20,488 bases of DNA from a virus. Below, one piece after another: positions 686-20,488 of this stretch; the first letter of the stretch is position 1; the number at the start of each line of letters is the position of its first letter. The notes under the pieces were generated by a model that was given only the letters and a program-made list of their open reading frames with translations, was not told the origin of the DNA and did no database searches. The DNA lies in the IMG/VR virus record IMGVR_UViG_3300025141_009240, positions 1-20,488 of that record; one strand, written 5' to 3'. Both the position numbers and the translations under genes were made by a program.

Positions 686-733
686 CCCGGAGGAGGGGCG
701 TGCTACGCAGTTTCCGCACGCCCCGGAGGAGGG
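686..733. repeat. GC-rich hairpin flanked by 12-bp direct repeats
   Basis: A perfect 9-bp inverted repeat (GGGGCGTGC at 695-703, GCACGCCCC at 716-724) has a 12-base loop. The loop contains the TAG stop of the leftward membrane-protein gene. The 12-mer CCCGGAGGAGGG occurs on either side, at 686-697 and 722-733. The surroundings are AT-rich, so the block stands out. On the - strand no T-run follows, so it is not a standard intrinsic terminator. It may still slow polymerase or protect an mRNA 3' end. The rest of the gap, 606-685, holds no convincing gene; a 35-codon leftward frame from 669 lacks a binding site. Confidence 0.75.
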
Positions 734-1077
734 AGGCTATCTATCTCTTTTTCTTCTTTACGATGTCTGAACATGAGCCATATCCATACTAAATAAGCAG
801 GAATAAGTGGAAGTTGAGTACCAACCGTGATACCAACTGTAGAATCAATCATGGTAGAGTCGCATAAACAACCAAGTAGATCACTTAATGTATTACCTAT
901 ACCACCACCAATAATAGCACCCAACATGATGCAAAGTTTTTGGGATGTCCTACCATTGCATGACCTTTCAATCATACTTTCAAGACAAGTCAATCCCCAA
1001 ATAACACCCGCAACCAATACGAGGTTGTCGATGATACCGAAGATGAGTCCATTTGTTAATAGTTCATACCAATTCAT
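703..1077 (-). CDS. Small three-helix membrane protein (possible holin)
   Basis: The start is ATG 1077, with GGAGGTGA just upstream. It overlaps the kinase gene's stop in an ATGA arrangement, so the two are probably translationally coupled. An upstream in-frame ATG at 1095 lies before that binding site and is disfavoured. The 124-residue product has three hydrophobic stretches at about residues 8-31, 48-70 and 80-103, and a charged tail (RHRKEEKE). The second helix contains a glycine-rich patch, GAIIGGGIGNTLSDLLG. Small size, three helices and a charged C-terminus fit a class I holin, but that is inference. No lysis enzyme is visible in the window, so another inner-membrane role is equally possible. 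The stop codon lies in the loop of a GC-rich hairpin. Confidence 0.75.
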   Translation of the reverse strand: MNWYELLTNGLIFGIIDNLVLVAGVIWGLTCLESMIERSCNGRTSQKLCIMLGAIIGGGIGNTLSDLLGCLCDSTMIDSTVGITVGTQLPLIPAYLVWIWLMFRHRKEEKEIDSLPPPGRAETA

Positions 1078-2048: not shown

Positions 2049-2088
2049 AAATGTATACTCTCCATTTCGAGATAGAAAGTATACATTT
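2049..2088. repeat. Perfect 11-bp inverted repeat
   Basis: AAATGTATACT at 2049-2059 is matched by its exact reverse complement at 2078-2088, with an 18-base spacer. The short word ATTTCGAGA appears twice, at 2064-2072 and 2085-2093. It lies between the strong leftward terminator and the start of the zinc-finger gene, where a promoter or operator for the coupled leftward genes would be expected. It could be an operator, or a second weak terminator hairpin; there is no long T-run on the - strand after it. The remaining gap, about 1982-2048, is AT-rich with no clear promoter hexamers. Confidence 0.6.
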
Positions 2089-2111
2089 CGAGATTGGTGT
2101 CGGACACCGGG

Positions 2112-2155: not shown

Positions 2156-2171
2156 CCCAGTTACATCTGGG
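2156..2171. repeat. Short hairpin enclosing a stop codon
   Basis: CCCAG (2156-2160) and CTGGG (2167-2171) form a perfect 5-bp stem with a six-base loop, ATGTAA on the - strand. The loop holds the TAA stop of the leftward gene (2163-2161). It lies immediately before the main terminator stem, giving two tandem hairpins at the 3' end of this transcript. Confidence 0.6.
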
Positions 2172-2568
2172 AACCACCACCACCATCACAATCGTCATCG
2201 GGGATGAATCGTTCAATACAGCGGACAATGTCCCACTCCTCGTTGGTGTCATCAACGAGGTTAATCTTCACGCCACTGTACTTACCTTTGGATGAACGGA
2301 AGATTTTAGGTACAAGTGATACGACAGTGGCTTCACCACTACCTTTAGCGTTATCCCACTTGATACGCTTCTCGGTACGTTCGCAGATTGTGTGCTCTAC
2401 CAAGACGTTGAACGGCACGCCATCGTCATCTACACAGGTGTGAACTCTCATACCCAAGGGTTGAGGAGTTCCACCCGCAATGCTGATTGTGTCGTCCGTT
2501 ACGACAGTTGCTGCTCCCATACTATCGACACTCCCCAAAGTAACTTTCTTTACGGCTTCATTTGCCAT
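2161..2568 (-). CDS. Hypothetical protein with GGGGS tail, source of the inverted duplication
   Basis: The leftward frame encodes 135 residues from ATG 2568, with TTAGGTG four bases before the start. The protein opens MANEAVKKVTLGSVDSMGAA and has alternating hydrophobic and polar residues suggesting mainly beta structure (for example DTISIAGG and GVKINLVDD). It ends in an acidic, glycine-rich tail, DDDCDGGGGSQM. No signal peptide or membrane helix is seen, and I do not recognise a family. It is transcribed alone: its own terminator follows the stop. Its 5' leader and first 25-30 codons are repeated as a degraded inverted copy on the other side of the structured element at 2645-2734. The strong terminator suggests high expression. 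Confidence 0.8.
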   Translation of the reverse strand: MANEAVKKVTLGSVDSMGAATVVTDDTISIAGGTPQPLGMRVHTCVDDDGVPFNVLVEHTICERTEKRIKWDNAKGSGEATVVSLVPKIFRSSKGKYSGVKINLVDDTNEEWDIVRCIERFIPDDDCDGGGGSQM

Positions 2569-2644
2569 AAGACACCTAACTTTCCCACTCTACTTGAGTG
2601 AATATGATAGCCCGCACCATCGCGAACTACGGTAGGGGGATCAC

Positions 2645-2734
2645 GTGGAACGAGCACGGTTGAAAGATTCCCGTCTTTCAACCGTAAAGATAAGCCGGGC
2701 GACGCTCTGCTCGCCCGTCCTTATCTCGTTCCAC
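2645..2734. other. Three-way-junction-like structured core
   Basis: Reading the + strand: closing stem GTGGAACG (2645-2652) pairs with CGTTCCAC (2727-2734). Inside it a perfect 12-bp hairpin, ACGGTTGAAAGA (2656-2667) with TCTTTCAACCGT (2674-2685), has loop TTCCCG. A second arm has AGATAAG (2688-2694) pairing with CTTATCT (2720-2726), capped by CGGGCGA (2696-2702) and TCGCCCG (2711-2717) with an eight-base loop. The outer inverted-repeat arms extend the closing stem by more than 60 further imperfect pairs. The same pairing is available to either strand. It may be a noncoding RNA, a leader structure of the leftward gene, or a DNA element such as an origin. No known RNA family is recognised. Confidence 0.7.
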
Positions 2735-2777
2735 CCCTACCGTTCGCGCTGGTGTGGCTATCTGACTCAAGTAGTGG

Positions 2778-2872
2778 GGAAGTTAGTCGACATGGCAACG
2801 AAGCCGTATCCAAAGTCACGGGGGGTGTCGATAGGATGCGCAACTAGTAACGGACACACAATCATCGCCTAA
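2778..2872 (+). pseudogene. Degraded inverted copy of the 5' end of the 2161-2568 gene
   Basis: From ATG 2792 the + strand reads like the start of the leftward gene, but one base is missing after ATGGCAA. The reading frame therefore shifts, giving MATKPYPKSRG instead of MANEAVKKVTL. The ribosome site TTAGGTG of the original is reduced to TTAG here. Nucleotide similarity continues through GTGTCGATAG, GTAACGGAC and ACACAATCA, then the frame ends at a TAATAG pair (2871-2876). I see this as a nonfunctional gene fragment. A new short peptide cannot be fully excluded. Confidence 0.55.
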
Positions 2873-2922
2873 TAGGTGGTGGTGGCTCAAGGTCAACTGG
2901 TGATAGACACCCCGAAGGCCCC

Positions 2923-2942
2923 TGGCTTCGGAGGTGATTTAG
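2923..2942. repeat. Small hairpin
   Basis: CCGAAG and CTTCGG form a perfect 6-bp stem with an eight-base loop. It lies just right of the inverted duplication. No T-run follows on the + strand, so terminator function is not supported. It may mark the edge of the duplicated segment. Confidence 0.45.
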
Positions 2943-2987
2943 TAAGGAAAGGGCAATCCTGTCTAGGAATTCTCTCTTTTAAACTTT

Positions 2988-3169
2988 TGTACCACATGCG
3001 ATCCGGGTATGTACCACATGAACGGGTTCAAAATACCCCCCTTACACCCTCAATAACCCCCCTTTTTGTCTTTGTACCGGGTGATCCAGGTATTTTTAAA
3101 AGCTAAAACATAAGAGTAATATATATATAAGAGTGAAAATAGTCCGGTACATGTGGTTCATGCGGTACA
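2988..3169. promoter_or_regulatory. Cluster of five TGTACC/GGTACA boxes before the glycosyltransferase
   Basis: TGTACC occurs at 2988-2993, 3010-3015 and 3073-3078, and its reverse complement GGTACA at 3146-3151 and 3164-3169. Three of them extend to GTACC(A/G)CATG (2989-2998, 3011-3020, and reversed at 3159-3168). Two sites also share a longer frame, TTTGTACC then GATCC(G/A)GGTAT, at 2986-3010 and 3071-3092. Between them are C-rich runs and an AT-rich stretch (3094-3130) with a repeated TAAGAGT. This looks like an operator or activator array for the rightward gene, with the promoter in the AT-rich part. No bound protein can be named. Confidence 0.5.
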
Positions 3170-3177
3170 CTACCCCT

Positions 3178-3897
3178 ATGATCGTCTCAATACTCATGCC
3201 AGCGTACAATACAGCCCCTTTTATCAGGGAAGCGGTGCAATCATGCCTGGATCAGACCTACCCACTCTTCGAATTAATCATATCCAACGACGGATCCACC
3301 GATCATACCCTAGATATCTTGGCTCAGTTCAACGATCCACGGATAATGATCCTCAATAACCCCCATTCTGGGTACTCGGGAGCATTTAATCGGGCTTTGG
3401 AGAGCTCATGTGGCGATATCATAGCTCGAATGGACTCAGACGACCTTCAAGATCCCACCAGAATCGAGAAGTCGGTGGATATGCTGCTTGATTACCCCGA
3501 TATACCCATAACTACCTGTAGAATGGTGGGCTTACTAGAGAATGGGAACACATTTAATTATGTGAATGGGAAAATGGATTCATATCTCTATGCCACCACT
3601 ACAGATAGGGGATTTCCTGTTAATGCCTCCATAGTTGCCTATAAAGAAGTCTATGACAAGATAGGAGGCTTCGATGAATCTCTCGTAACAGCGGGAGACG
3701 GGGATTGGAACTTCCGTACCTTACATCATTACACGGAATGGAGCCTAGTGGACGAATACCTTTACATTTATAGAAGACACCCTGACCAATTAACACAGAG
3801 AGTACCCGGTAAAGGCAGGGAAATACACAATCGGTCCAAAGAAAAATTCCTTCGAGACTCTAAAAGTGGGGGGTTTACCCCCCCAACTCTGGCTTAG
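3178..3897 (+). CDS. Family 2 glycosyltransferase
   Basis: From ATG 3178 the protein has 239 residues and opens MIVSILMPAYN, the usual first strand of GT-A family 2 enzymes. NDGSTD at about 37-42 and the metal-binding DSDD at 86-89 follow, then a FDESL/GDGDWNF region near 165-180 typical of the acceptor side. It should transfer a sugar from a nucleotide sugar; donor and acceptor are unknown. In phages such enzymes modify DNA, virion proteins or host surface glycans. No membrane segment is visible. In-frame upstream starts exist at GTG 3133, ATG 3151 and ATG 3160, but the 3133-3177 stretch contains two TGTACC-type boxes, so I place the start at 3178. No start has a good binding site. It is a lone rightward gene, convergent with and overlapping the next leftward gene by 23 bases. 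Confidence 0.85.
   Translation: MIVSILMPAYNTAPFIREAVQSCLDQTYPLFELIISNDGSTDHTLDILAQFNDPRIMILNNPHSGYSGAFNRALESSCGDIIARMDSDDLQDPTRIEKSVDMLLDYPDIPITTCRMVGLLENGNTFNYVNGKMDSYLYATTTDRGFPVNASIVAYKEVYDKIGGFDESLVTAGDGDWNFRTLHHYTEWSLVDEYLYIYRRHPDQLTQRVPGKGREIHNRSKEKFLRDSKSGGFTPPTLA
3862..3888 (-). terminator. G/C hairpin at the convergent gene ends
   Basis: GGGGGG (3868-3873), loop TTTA, CCCCCC (3878-3883) form a perfect stem, extended by AGT/ACT across two unpaired bases. On the - strand it is followed by ACTTTTAG, so it can end the leftward helicase transcript. It lies inside the overlapping 3' ends of two convergent genes, and its loop holds the TAA stop of the leftward one. On the + strand no T-run follows. 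Confidence 0.6.
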
Positions 3898-9299: not shown

Positions 9300-11236
9300 T
9301 GTTATGGGTTCCTAAAGAGAATAATCCTTTTTACCCTCTTCCTAAGGACTATCCGGAATTAAACGAAGAAGGACAACGACAAGCAAGAGTAAACGCTTGT
9401 CGTTTATGGACTGCAAAGGATAAATCCGCAGAGGAAATAGCGGAGGCGTTTGCTGCTTCTATGCGTTTCTTTGATCTTTATTATCTACACGCAGACCACT
9501 CAACAGACTTTGATCCTCTTTTCTATGACGACAAACCTTTAGAAACTCCAACCTTCCACTACGACATATTGAAACAGTGGGCATCCTCCCCCCGTAACAT
9601 TTGTATTGCACCACGGGGTTCTGCCAAATCTTATCTGGTTCGTAAGGCTTGCCTTCTTCGTATGATTTCTCGTCCTATGTTCACAATATTGTATGCGACC
9701 TCCACAAACGATAACGCACGAGGTACAGGTCAAGCGTTGAAGGATCAATTCCAACATAACCAAAAATTGCAGGATGATTGGAATCCGGAGTTTCCCGATG
9801 GAAGACTAGTACCTAAAAGAGGTGAAGCCCCATTCGGAACTGAGATGATGCAATTAAGAAATGGTAGCTGGCTTCGAGCTATCTCCGCTGAATCAAGACA
9901 ACGAGGTGGTCGCCCTCGTCGTTATGTATTGGATGACCCAGAATATGACCCAAAAGCATCAACATCAATGTCACTCATCCGACAGTATATGGATGATCTT
10001 CTTTTCAAAGTGGTTCTACCTATGGTTATGCGCGCAGGTTGTGGTGTGGATTGGCTGGCTACTTTCGTATCTCGTCGTCACTATGCTTGGCATGCTCTAC
10101 AAACTGAACAGAATCTTGCGGGAGAACAAGTAGCATCAGACCCACGATTCAACTTATGGTCACGAATGATTGTTCGTGCTGCATACGAGGGAGATAAAGG
10201 AGAGTTAATATCCTGTTGGCCCGACATGTGGCCTCCTACAGTAGAAGCCAAAGAAGCAAATCCTCAATGGAAAGATCGAGTCTCCTTAGAAGAAATACGA
10301 GAGATCATCGGAACACCTAACTTCCTAGCGGAGTATATGGCTAGACCCGGTGAGGGGGAAGGTGCATACTTCCCCCCACTCTCCAAGGAGAGACACGGTT
10401 GGTGGCTTGAGAATGTAGATACCTTAACGGACGAAGACCCCTACAAAAGCAATACCCTTGTGTGTTGGTATTCGGGAGACGAGTTAATAAAGAAAAGAAT
10501 GTGTGAATTTTTAAGGTTGACTAGGCTCTTTATGACGGTGGATACTTCCTTTACTGCAACAGCAGATTCAGACTTTAAAGTAGCCTGTGTGATGGGTATT
10601 AACTCAGATAATGATCTATTCATATTGGATGTGTGGAGTGCCCAATCCAGAGAAGACGAGTTAATTAAACAATGTATGAACTTGGCTGATAAATGGAAAA
10701 CGCCCACTATCCACGTAGAAGCAATCAAACACGGGTTAGGCATTTATAACACCCTAGATTCCCTAGTAAAAACCAGAGCTAAGGAAATGATGGGCATCTC
10801 CCACCTTCCGGGAATCAAGAAGTTAAATCCGGGAATGATAGAGAAAACGACGAAGATAGCATCTCTATCCTTAAGATTTGAACATAACAAGATTAAACTT
10901 CCTCTCTGGAAAAATAATACTCCCTTCCGTAGGCTTAAAGATCAAATAGAGCAATTTAATCCCGATGCTAGAGACGGTGGGTTACAACACGATGACGAAT
11001 TAGACTGTGTTTGTATGTCCCAATTCGTCATCAAAGGGCGATTGAGAAGGGTAAACAAGGTAGATTTACCTGATAAAACTCCCTTGGAAAGACTTAAAGA
11101 CGGGGAAGTATACGATGAAGAAAGTGGGACTTACATAGCACATGCTATGGATTTTAATAAAATATCTGTTGGGGATATTCAAACTATTTTAGACAGGAGC
11201 TTAGAAAATGATTCCGACAAATCCACAAGAATATGA
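9299..11236 (+). CDS. terL: Terminase large subunit
   Basis: The 645-residue protein is the packaging motor ATPase and nuclease. The ATPase domain shows Walker A APRGSAKS at 104-111, Walker B YVLDDPE at 209-215 and a motif III-like WLATFVS at 252-258. The RNase H-type nuclease domain shows TVDTSF with Asp415, then FILDVW near 441-446, Glu474 in VEAIKHG, and HDDELD with acidic residues at 565-569. These fit the usual acidic nuclease residues, so the enzyme appears intact. It cuts concatemeric DNA and pumps it through the portal into the procapsid. The start ATG shares one base with the preceding stop. The C-terminal 70 residues are polar and may contact the portal. The next gene begins 29 bases before its end. 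Confidence 0.95.
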   Translation: MLWVPKENNPFYPLPKDYPELNEEGQRQARVNACRLWTAKDKSAEEIAEAFAASMRFFDLYYLHADHSTDFDPLFYDDKPLETPTFHYDILKQWASSPRNICIAPRGSAKSYLVRKACLLRMISRPMFTILYATSTNDNARGTGQALKDQFQHNQKLQDDWNPEFPDGRLVPKRGEAPFGTEMMQLRNGSWLRAISAESRQRGGRPRRYVLDDPEYDPKASTSMSLIRQYMDDLLFKVVLPMVMRAGCGVDWLATFVSRRHYAWHALQTEQNLAGEQVASDPRFNLWSRMIVRAAYEGDKGELISCWPDMWPPTVEAKEANPQWKDRVSLEEIREIIGTPNFLAEYMARPGEGEGAYFPPLSKERHGWWLENVDTLTDEDPYKSNTLVCWYSGDELIKKRMCEFLRLTRLFMTVDTSFTATADSDFKVACVMGINSDNDLFILDVWSAQSREDELIKQCMNLADKWKTPTIHVEAIKHGLGIYNTLDSLVKTRAKEMMGISHLPGIKKLNPGMIEKTTKIASLSLRFEHNKIKLPLWKNNTPFRRLKDQIEQFNPDARDGGLQHDDELDCVCMSQFVIKGRLRRVNKVDLPDKTPLERLKDGEVYDEESGTYIAHAMDFNKISVGDIQTILDRSLENDSDKSTRI

Positions 11237-11507: not shown

Positions 11508-13476
11508 CCTAGCAAGAGTAATTGATGAGCATGCGGATAGAGAAGAATCTAGGTTGTCTTATCGTAGAGTTATGTGGCTTCTTGCATGGCACTACCTGTG
11601 CGGAGCTAGACGGTTTGATGTATTTGATCCTCATACAGGAGCATTATCCCCCCACTACTTAGATGAGGAGGGGAACATGGAGTTTCAATCTCAAGAGATG
11701 TTGTCATCTATTGACCGTGTCTCTGCGAGATTAGCATCTCTAGACCTAAGACCTAAAGTTATTCGTAAAGGTATATCCTTAAACAGTATCCGTGAACGAG
11801 CAATTGGTCAGATTGTTATGGATCATGTTATTGCGAATGACCAATTAGAAACAGTTAAAACTCAATTTGCTCATATATTTACAGCACTAGGTTCTTGTGG
11901 TATCGCGGGACACATTACAGATGCTGCAACAATTGGACTAACAGCAGACTTAGAAGTTATCCACCCACGAGAATTATACCCCTTCCCATCTTTAGGAGCA
12001 GACTATACAAAGGCTCGTGGAATAATGAGACAACGAACTGTACCTCTAGATTTCCTAGAAGACATGTTCGGTAAGAAGCTTAAGAAGAGTCTTAAAAAGA
12101 TGGAGTGGTGGGAAGCAAGCATAGGCGAACAAGATGAAGCAAGCGGTGGGGGTGGTGGAGTCAGTGAAAGTGGAAGTGATCTCACCTACCACAGTGATAC
12201 TAGTCAGTCTGGAGGAACCCCCTCTAAACAACATACTTCCTTAGTTAAGATCCGTGAACTATGGACATATGGAGTGGGGGATACGGTGACAAGGTATGTA
12301 GTTACAAGTGGAGAACATGTACTACATGATGAAGAATTTGAAGATCAGGAAGTCTACTGCCCAATCGGTTTTGCAAGGTTTATGGAGAACGGTACATTCC
12401 ATGGAGCAGGACTTTTTGATTTACTGTTTAGTTTGAATAGAGAAATGGAACGATTGTTAAAGTCTTTATTTAATAACATTAGAGATACAGATAGGTATGG
12501 AGTTCTTGTTATGCCTCAGGGTCAATTCAACGACCGTGCTATGCTAAGGGATGTAGGAGGCGGTCTTCGAGTTCTTCCGTTTGAACCAGACCCAGTAGTA
12601 GAAACCTTTAGACCTTTTAACATTACACCATATAACGCAGGAGATATTCCCGGTAAGACGGCTGCGTTTGCAAAGGATCTTCTTGACAGGATGAATCCTG
12701 TACAAGACCTTATTCGTGAGAAGGGTCGTGTAGATTCTGCGGTAGGGTTATCGTTCCTTGATGAACAAATCAATAAGGCGATGACCAATCCTAGTCGTGG
12801 TATAGAGCAAGCGTTCGGAGGTTGTTTCCGTTCAGTTCTTGCTGGCTCTATTAGAACGCTCATTGATAATCCAATAGCCATCCCCGTTTCAGATCTTAAT
12901 CTTGAGATGGCAGGAGCCATCATTGATGCAGATAAGAGTGAGATTCAGTTCCAAGGAACAAATCCTCTACCTTCCTTAAAGAATGTATCTATCACTATTA
13001 AGGAAACCAGCCCTCGTTCGATGGTTGCTCGTAAGACTGAAGCGATGGAGATGTTGAAGGCAGGAATTGCGGATCCAGACACATTCAAACTTCTTGTTCT
13101 TAAAGAAGGATTAGACTTTGCTGTTTGGTTGGACGAAGAAAAGTCTGCCTATGATATGGTAGTTCGCAACTGTCTGGTGTTATATGGAGATGGTCAAGAT
13201 CCGGGTCAAATCATTTTGACCCCCCACACATCTAGACCAGAATTTCAATTAAGAGTTATTATCGCATTTATGTCAGGACCACTAATGGCAGTAGCAAGCA
13301 CAGAAGTACAAAACGAATTTATAAAACTTAAAGAGTTTATGATGCAGTCAACTGGAGCAATGATGCCAGAAGGTGTACCATCTCCAATGGAAGCTGCTAT
13401 GATGCAAAACCCACAAGGGGAAATGGAAATGGGCCAAGGTGGTCCAATGCCATTCCCACAACAAGGAGCCATGTAA
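11467..13476 (+). CDS. Portal protein
   Basis: The 669-residue protein lies between terL and the scaffold gene, the standard portal position, and has portal-like size and texture. A helical N-terminal segment leads into a mixed domain. A Gly/Ser-rich linker lies at about 224-252, then a wing-like region, a long helical stretch near FDLLFSLNREMERLLKSLF and a Met/Gln-rich tail. Portals form the dodecameric ring at one capsid vertex through which DNA enters and leaves. The start is GTG 11467 with AAAGG eight bases upstream. It overlaps the preceding gene by 41 bases and is followed at once by the scaffold ATG. The AAGGAG at its very end serves the scaffold gene. Confidence 0.88.
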   Translation: MALDTIKLPKNKHDLARVIDEHADREESRLSYRRVMWLLAWHYLCGARRFDVFDPHTGALSPHYLDEEGNMEFQSQEMLSSIDRVSARLASLDLRPKVIRKGISLNSIRERAIGQIVMDHVIANDQLETVKTQFAHIFTALGSCGIAGHITDAATIGLTADLEVIHPRELYPFPSLGADYTKARGIMRQRTVPLDFLEDMFGKKLKKSLKKMEWWEASIGEQDEASGGGGGVSESGSDLTYHSDTSQSGGTPSKQHTSLVKIRELWTYGVGDTVTRYVVTSGEHVLHDEEFEDQEVYCPIGFARFMENGTFHGAGLFDLLFSLNREMERLLKSLFNNIRDTDRYGVLVMPQGQFNDRAMLRDVGGGLRVLPFEPDPVVETFRPFNITPYNAGDIPGKTAAFAKDLLDRMNPVQDLIREKGRVDSAVGLSFLDEQINKAMTNPSRGIEQAFGGCFRSVLAGSIRTLIDNPIAIPVSDLNLEMAGAIIDADKSEIQFQGTNPLPSLKNVSITIKETSPRSMVARKTEAMEMLKAGIADPDTFKLLVLKEGLDFAVWLDEEKSAYDMVVRNCLVLYGDGQDPGQIILTPHTSRPEFQLRVIIAFMSGPLMAVASTEVQNEFIKLKEFMMQSTGAMMPEGVPSPMEAAMMQNPQGEMEMGQGGPMPFPQQGAM

Positions 13477-16653: not shown

Positions 16654-19310
16654 TACTGGATCTATATTAATGACAACCCTTGAGAGGATTCGTACCTTTT
16701 TAGACGACCCCTCTCTTGATGCTAAATACGACAACGACTTTCTGGTAAGGCAGATTATTGAGCCGGAGATGGTTAATGTTATCACGGCTATTAATCAAAA
16801 TAGAGACGAGCCTATACTTTGTAAATTTTCATTGGATGCACTTGGCCTCAATGATACTCATATAGAACTCCCTCCTAATATAGGAATTATTCATAGGATT
16901 ACCTCGTTAAATGCTGCGGGGGAGGTATTAGATGATATAGCAAAACGAGATGAAACGGATCCTCGTGGACCCGGTTGGCATCTTGACGGTAGAGATTTAT
17001 ATCTTCGCCCCGATTGGACTCCCGATACTGCGGGATACGAGGTTTGGTATACGCCCTCTGGCGACTTTAACCCCCACTACGCCTCTAGTGACGGGACCCT
17101 TGCAGCTGATGCGGGTACTCCATTAGTAGTGGATCAGTTAACATTTGCCGCCACCCCAACAGTGGGGGGAATAGACATGCGAGAAAGTGCGTATGTCGGT
17201 GGGGTTCTTCGTGTATGGTCCGGTAATAAAACTGTAGTCCAAGAAAGAGTTATCACTTCTTATAACGCAAATACAAAGGTGGTAGTAGTCCGTACTGGTT
17301 TTACTACTCCAGTTGTTGCCGGTGAAGTTCAATATGAAATTGTACCTGAGTTTATGGGACAAATTTGGCAAGCAGTTGCACTCGCATCTTCTATGAATCT
17401 AGGTGTTGCTCGTAATATTAACGAGAAACACATGGCGTATCTTAAGGAGCAATTTTCCCTTGCCCTTCAAACCGCAGCGAGATTGACATCTGCTAAAGTA
17501 GATGAAAAGGGTGTTGCCCCAGAGAACTCTGTTCTTTACACGATGCTCCAAAGAATTCGATGGGGACTTCCAGACCAGATAGAAAAGGAAATGTCAAACG
17601 ATTACATCATGCGTTCTGTAGTTAATCCTAAACTTGGAGAAGTGATGTCTATGATGGGGGGTCGTAGTGATTCTCAAATAGTTTTACGACATGCTTTAAC
17701 ATTAGCAGTAGATACAGAATATTACATACTTCCTCCTTGTATAGGTAAAGCCCTTAGAATTGCACAACTTACTAATACTGCTAGGAAGGGACTAGTTACT
17801 AAAGAGATTCGTCAAAGAGACGAGAACGACCCTCAAGGTAGTGGTTGGGCTATAGAAGGTAATAGACTTTCGATTCGTCCTTATTCTACAGGTACTAGTA
17901 GTGATTATTCCATTTGGTATCACCCCAATGGTGACTTCATGCCTCACTACGCTAAAGACGGGGTCCTGTCTGGTTCGAGTAAAACTTTAACTTTAACTAA
18001 GAACACTCTATTTTCTAGATTACTAGGCTCGGTTGATAAAAGAGTAAACTCTTACCTTGGTGCAACACTACGGGTATTCGAATCCGATGGTTCAATCTCT
18101 GAAAGGGTCATTGTGGGACATAGTGCAGGTAACTCAGATGGATCGGGAACTACAACTGGAACGGTTACAGTTTCTGAAGCGTTTACGACTACAGGTGGAC
18201 CAGTTACGGTTGCATACGAGATAGTAGCTCCTTGGATGCATACTACAATGTCTGCAGTTGTTGCGAGATCCATATTGGAACTTGTTGCTCTTAAGGGACA
18301 AATAAGTGAAGCAGACCTTGCGATTCTTTCTGAGTCTGCTAAATCTGCGATGACCTCTGCAATGATTTCCGTGAGAGAAAGAAACGCCCAAGATATTGTT
18401 CCAAACAAAGATTCCTCTCTTCATATGATTCTTGAGAAAACCAAGACCATCCTCGGTGATATTGCAAAGGAACTTGATTACTCTGATGATTATATTTTTA
18501 GGCACGGTATCGTACCTGAGTATAGCAGGGTCATATCTAGGATTCAAAATACATCAACGGATTATGTTCAAGAAAAAACTACAATCACATTGGTTAAGGA
18601 TCAACAGTACTATGAAGTACCTGCGTGTGTTGGAGAGATACTCAGAATTGTAACTACATTTGATGATGGGAGACTTAAAACAGAAATGATGCCTAGAGGA
18701 CAATATAATCCTAAAGGTCCAAATTGGAGTATGGAAGGTAATATGCTTTCCATTAGACCTTTCCCGCAAGCAGCAGAAAACATGGAGATATGGTTTATTC
18801 CTTCTACAGATGTTAAACCCCACTATGCTGAGGATGGAGTTATAGACGCAGGTACAGAATTTACTTTATCTGCTGGGGGTTGGGATTCTCAAATACTGGG
18901 AGATCTTGATCGTAGAGAAAGTTCCTATGTAGGATGTACCCTTAGACTTATAGGTAGAGAACATGGTAGGGTTCAAGAAAGAATTATTACCACACATACT
19001 GCACTGTCCAATCCCCCCGAGGTTACCTTTAGATCACCATTTACAGATCTAGAGATTATAAATGGTACGGTTTCTTATGAGATAGTGCCTATCCACTTTA
19101 ATGCAGTATCTGAAGCAGTTGCTCAAGGTGCAGCAATGAATCTACTTGTATCTGCAAGAAGAGTTACTAAAGCACAACATCTAATGTTAATGACAAACTT
19201 CAAGTCTGCGATGAAGACTGCAATGGATAACTTTACATTTAAGCAGAATCGAATGCCTAAGAAGTATGAACGAGATACCGTAGACAATAAAAATCGTTAC
19301 GGTGGACTCT

Positions 19311-19324
<14 letters not shown>
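16646..19324 (+). CDS. Triplicated adaptor-like virion protein
   Basis: The 892-residue protein consists of three copies of a module of about 290 residues (roughly 9-295, 296-590, 591-892). Each has a helical start with a (D/N)DFL- or DDYI-like motif and a strand ending in LPP or VPA. Then come [12 protein letters not shown]-type, WY(T/H)P(S/N)GDFxPHYA and YEIVP motifs, and closing helices. The YxLP, then W..G..L.LRP, then Y.VWY.P pattern resembles head-tail adaptor and connector proteins, normally a single short copy. It could be a fused connector or a tail/head decoration protein; this is inference. ATG 16646 has AAAGGA 13 bases upstream; ATG 16670 in frame is an alternative. It overlaps the genes on both sides. 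Confidence 0.8.
16670..19321 (+). repeat. Three protein-level repeats of about 290 residues
   Basis: Matching motifs recur with a period of 290-292 residues. [13 protein letters not shown] at 134-146, [13 protein letters not shown] at 424-436 and [13 protein letters not shown] at 716-728 correspond, as do YEIVPEF at 230, YEIVAPW at 524 and YEIVPIH at 811. [22 protein letters not shown] and [10 protein letters not shown] also correspond. The DNA is much less alike than the protein, so the duplication is old. Confidence 0.85.

Positions 19325-20488
<1,164 letters not shown>

Follow-up and report, generated by a model that had tools for sequence, protein, structure and literature searches.

Giant inverted duplications of a leader and gene start at one variable slot in a group of related phages

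The stretch of DNA analysed here (the window, a viral record of 20.5 kb in which early genes run leftward and structural genes rightward) carries, behind an origin-like region, a giant inverted duplication of the leader and 5' end of an early gene. Duplications of the same kind, made of unrelated sequence, occupy the same slot in two other lineages of the group. Whereas the paired arms and their recurrence are read from the sequences, the burial of the ribosome site is predicted from folds; the symmetry axis, placed from the arm bounds, lies at a similar distance from the start codon in all three. A recurring inverted duplication of this type may serve as an off-switch. The reading which we tentatively prefer, although it falls a little short of probable, combines birth by template switching, decay of the upstream arm, and a translational off-switch acting on read-through mRNA.

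The inverted duplication in the window

Alignment of the reverse complement of 2480-2654 with 2726-2872 gave a local score of 106, as compared to a mean of 16.1 (sd 2.3, maximum 29) in 500 dinucleotide-preserving shuffles, confirming the inverted duplication that the earlier note had proposed. Relaxing the gap costs lengthened the arms to 2471-2654 and 2725-2882; over this length there are 135 matches, 18 mismatches and 14 indel events. Folded as RNA, the segment 2440-2900 (461 nt) reached -244.8 kcal/mol on the plus strand (z -15.7) and -241.8 kcal/mol on the minus strand (z -15.6), equalled by none of the shuffles in either case, and is by far the strongest fold in the whole window. The features of the region are as follows.

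2161-2568, minus strand: orphan gene of 135 amino acids with its start inside the stem; no Pfam or PHROGs match
2471-2654, minus strand: gene arm, downstream in the mRNA, from the alignment; high-stringency bounds 2484-2654
2655-2724, no strand assigned: core of two small hairpins, which give the long stem a three-way junction at its end, from the folds
2725-2882, minus strand: upstream arm, an inverted, decayed copy of the gene arm, from the alignment; high-stringency bounds 2725-2864
2909-2967, minus strand: conserved element CCTAGACAGGAT ... GGGGCCTTCGGGGT, immediately ahead of the variable leader; present in all eight phages compared
2938-3180, no strand assigned: origin-like noncoding region with repeats and an AT-rich tract, 80% identical to L003
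4199-5647, minus strand: primase/helicase with a D5/P4-like C-terminal half, the query for finding relatives

The gene arm contains the leader and ribosome site of the leftward gene 2161-2568 together with the first ~98 nt of the gene itself, start codon included, largely as described earlier, and the upstream arm is indeed a frameshifted copy with a damaged ribosome site: its copy of the start codon lies at 2792 (plus strand), and the AGG is gone. The structured core between the arms was likewise found. It carries a perfect 12-bp hairpin (2656-2667/2674-2685) and a second one at about 2688-2694/2720-2726, which encloses GGGCGA/TCGCCC, so that the long, bulged stem ends in a three-way junction. 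What did not hold was the claim that the differences between the arms are mostly indels outside the gene, since both kinds of difference, mismatches and indels, are distributed evenly over the stem, in its coding as well as its noncoding part.

Searches for counterparts of these elements were negative. The orphan gene has no homologue among 13 related records, and a single-sequence structure prediction of its product (pLDDT 39) was uninformative. Rfam yielded no match above the gathering score in the window, a DNA similarity search against named phages found no match for it, and the exact core hairpin did not occur in the viral contigs searched. The reverse transcriptase expected of a retron or diversity-generating retroelement was not found in the relatives: a scan that covered 13 related records (mostly fragments) and control genomes detected PF00078 in the controls only.

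Some further elements were observed along the window. Repeated ATCTCGAAAT boxes, operator- or promoter-like, lie upstream of the next early gene (window 2049-2100; L043 about 1255-1290), and a GC-rich hairpin precedes the same MS(R/K)xGKW gene in three phages (window 690-740, minus strand; L043 2195-2252; L004 10413-10460). At the far end, 19302-20487, two consecutive reading frames contain collagen-like GPTGPTG repeats and possibly encode tail fibres.

Recurrence at the same slot in related phages

Relatives were gathered by matches to the primase-helicase, plus one more by DNA pattern; they are mostly fragments, and the comparison set comprises eight phages, the window included. Against named phages, the best matches of the primase showed less than 30% identity, and the terminase gave no match. 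The arrangement noticed in the window was sought in these relatives, and a giant inverted duplication of leader and gene start is present at the same slot in three of the eight phages, namely the window, G001 (at its narrower bounds, L043 503-777) and the L006 clade (likewise, 10149-10392). G001 is the contig of L003, the window's closest relative (86% primase identity); its arms (L043 498-599, pairing with 662-780) form a stem which covers the ribosome site and the first ~29 nt of a gene different from that of the window. The arms of L006 (10141-10238, pairing with 10293-10402) form a stem which stops just beyond the start codon of a third, different gene. Among the inverted repeats in about 180 kb scanned (with some overlap), only these three scored at least 85, all of them in the same slot of about 400 bp.

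A comparable long stem is absent from the other five phages (L004, L007, L008, L010 and L012), indicating that it is dispensable in the group. The three carriers do not form a clade in the primase tree, which forces at least two changes, gains or losses.

The surroundings of the slot have a fixed order. In the sense of the mRNA, the origin-like region lies upstream of the hairpin and is followed by the conserved motif and then by the variable leader. The start-to-start spacing of the motif CCTAGACA...GGGGGC is exactly 45 nt in all eight phages; its blocks, CCTAGACA(GGAT..TTTCGT) and GGGGGCnnnGGGGG(TACC), are conserved, with little sequence conservation between them. Outside the window the two-block element is located as follows.

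Relatives: L043 277-335; L006 10007; L004 9394; L007 10695
Further relatives: L008 10090; L010 1479; L012 10014

Behind the motif, the leader measures about 315-430 nt in seven phages and is longer in L008. The leaders of different phages have hardly any 11-base words in common, and the window, G001 and L006 have none; the gene behind the leader is strongly or completely different from phage to phage. The hairpin sequence itself had no above-chance match in 12 related records and none in phage records, and a pattern search for a GTTGTT..GGGTG leader motif, seen in some relatives, found only two places. On the sequences, the presence of hairpins of unrelated sequence in one slot suggests a recurring mutation. 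A miniature inverted-repeat element was rejected, since the leaders of the three carriers are unrelated and no repeat copies were found in those records. The possibility that the slot gene encodes an SSB, considered for the acidic C-terminal tails in L007 and L010, was also discarded, the model being modest (pLDDT 60) and without a significant fold match.

The region 2938-3180 contains repeated iteron-like units of the GGTACATGTGG / GATCCGGGT type around its AT-rich tract and is conserved across relatives; its anatomy marks it as a candidate replication origin. Beside it, a GtrB-like glycosyltransferase gene (3133-3897, plus strand) runs opposite to its neighbours, and L007 shows DNA similarity to part of this gene.

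Geometry, divergence of the arms and possible functions

The symmetry axis, calculated from the arm bounds, is situated 121.5, 121.5 and 129.5 nt upstream of the start codon in the three carriers, while its distance to the conserved motif varies among them. A spread this small has a P of 0.003-0.018 under uniform placement, in a post hoc test. According to the predicted folds, opening the stretch from -18 to +5 would cost 28.3, 27.4 and 20.4 kcal/mol in the carriers, as compared to 3.1-8.3 kcal/mol in the five relatives without the stem; with the upstream arm removed, the predicted cost in the carriers is 15.0, 11.5 and 7.0 kcal/mol.

In the preferred reading, template switching (snap-back copying) in the course of replication would have given the first gene beyond the origin-like repeats an inverted copy of its own leader and 5' end, placed between the repeats and the gene. 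Template switching is most likely the source of the duplication, being a natural and economical account of it. Transcripts coming from the origin side would carry both arms, and the upstream arm, transcribed first, would capture the ribosome site and start codon by pairing as soon as these appear, which should keep long transcripts from being translated. The protein would then be made from shorter transcripts which start inside the hairpin, past the upstream arm, or after processing. The template-switch origin, the long transcripts, and the internal start or processing site that frees the gene are what we infer in this reading. A scan of 2400-3200 on both strands, limited to sigma-70-like promoters, found none, which leaves the required internal start hypothetical; a TATAAT was seen by eye in the gene arm of L006.

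The two arms diverge asymmetrically. In 29 of the 33 indel events the extra bases belong to the gene arm (binomial P about 1e-5), and in 4 to the other arm; the upstream arm thus has the behaviour of a copy in decay. Indels and substitutions occur in a ratio of 33:42, as compared to 10:46 in homologous noncoding DNA of the window and G001 (P 0.0024). One-sided indels are absent from the palindromes of L006 (12083-12201), L007 and L012 and are thus not general to palindromes in these phages. The longest unbroken matches in the three stems, 10, 11 and 11 bp, are shorter than under random placement (joint P 0.0028; like the axis test, chosen after the data had been seen, in a set of eight phages), and interruptions are spread along the arms more evenly than by chance, with no concentration at the ribosome site. 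These sequences thus give some sign that long perfect duplexes are avoided, as though such duplexes were selected against and the pairing retained. A test for selection at the mRNA level showed no bias of the mismatches toward G-U on the mRNA strand (4 G-U versus 9 A-C), which counts against the lock, as does the dispensability of the stem, and no diverged hairpin variants suitable for covariation were found, the close variants L005, L006 and L030 being identical. An apparent excess of transversions was dropped as an oddity because the ratio is the same in the group's noncoding DNA (17:29 versus 13:29). L006 has further imperfect palindromes between genes, at 12083-12201 (119 bp) and 13016-13055, and three SNPs which distinguish it from L030 (12143-12146) lie in or beside the loop of the former.

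The earlier note had left open whether template switching produced the duplication or whether the pairing is kept because it is useful. The inverted duplication itself and the damaged state of the upstream arm stand, and template switching, for which there is precedent (PMC8794818), is the probable origin. Usefulness of the pairing has gained indirect support from the threefold use of one slot, the buried ribosome site, the similar axis and the evenly spaced interruptions. A bolder form of the lock, in which a regulator with recurring structure but no shared sequence is repeatedly rebuilt from scratch with whichever gene fills the slot, seems doubtful to us; it would be defined by its geometry, an axis about 122-130 nt upstream and arm helices of at most about 11 bp.

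A non-functional by-product of mutation is a strong rival to the lock, and a plausible one, even if we consider it on the unlikely side. The slot would be an origin-adjacent hot spot where inverted duplications arise frequently by template switching and then erode; the pairing would be useless, and a promoter within the gene arm would drive the gene. That the leaders are unrelated between phages, that five of the eight retain no trace of a stem, and that L006 has its 119-bp imperfect palindrome in a nearby intergenic gap all agree with this, as does the raised proportion of indels. The deletion-rich, one-sided divergence, as if only the copy were free to lose bases, is also expected of a useless decaying copy and counts against the lock. 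However, accidents would more often land in other places, and a stem of this size ought to be costly where it covers a start that is needed; yet all three stems include the ribosome site, at a similar axis distance and with evenly spaced interruptions.

It is unlikely that the stem acts at the DNA level, extruded or folded on single-stranded DNA beside the origin as a priming or assembly site in the manner of single-strand initiation sites or the stem-loop origin of plasmid pRN1, although both strands fold equally well, the stem adjoins the conserved iteron-like, AT-rich region, a D5/P4-like primase-helicase is encoded nearby, and a 100-bp stem-loop of pRN1 is needed for replication (PMC3869888). 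Five relatives possess the origin-like region but no long stem, so that the hairpin is not retained wherever that region is, and the stem overlaps a coding region.

A 10-N scaffold gap upstream of the G001 palindrome and the end of the L005 contig soon past the hairpin indicate that assembly is difficult here. In chimeras produced by amplification the arms are near-identical, whereas those of the window differ by about 12% plus 14 indels, one arm running on into an open reading frame that has a ribosome site; as relatives from other metagenomes have the same kind of structure, and the hairpin of L006 shows no difference among three contigs from different metagenomes (L005, L006 and L030), a chimera of inverted reads is very improbable.

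If the pairing is a lock, a gene-specific regulator can arise by one mutation, with no need for new sequence, and is easily replaced when the gene is swapped. If it is not, the slot would preserve a natural record of the pace at which template-switch palindromes arise and wear away beside a replication origin, and sequences from more relatives could be used to measure both this pace and how strongly long perfect duplexes are selected against.

Comparison with known systems

Plasmid pRN1 is a mobile replicon with a long stem-loop close to its primase-helicase gene; this 100-bp element, downstream of that gene, contains the proposed initiation site (PMC3869888). Most of the phage relatives, in contrast, are stem-less. 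The hairpin-enriched mitochondrial DNA of hairworms (PMC10380579) resembles the phages in having long inverted repeats embedded in coding regions, but these hairpins belong to animal mitochondria, and the phage ones to a single slot. Template switching can create an RNA stem in one event by making a reverse-complement copy of nearby sequence (PMC8794818). The cases described there are rRNA and microRNA genes, whereas the present ones are in phages, measure about 100-185 nt per arm, and lie over a gene start.

Leader structures which impede translation occur in transposases: that of ISPpu9 hides the ribosome site and lowers translation, and an inhibitory 5' leader structure is likewise attributed to IS200 in work cited by the same paper (PMC8450116). 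The window phage differs in lacking a transposase or element ends, and its stem is far longer.

Long read-through transcripts of T4 e, soc, 49 and I-TevI and of Aeh1 mobE have their ribosome site sequestered; for genes such as e, soc and I-TevI these transcripts are silent, and transcripts that start inside the hairpin are active (PMC2988022, PMC3014915). As in T4 and Aeh1, a phage gene would be embedded downstream of other transcription, and its ribosome site and/or start codon would be buried by pairing that needs upstream sequence; the predicted folds show this pairing with the upstream leader in all three carriers, as in T4-type leaders. The T4-type stems are short and local, with a mapped late promoter inside, whereas those of the window type have 100-185 nt per arm, consist of an inverted copy of the gene's own start, and would need an internal promoter that is hypothetical. 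T4 is the closest working precedent for a lock, and the first half of its logic is predicted in three phages.
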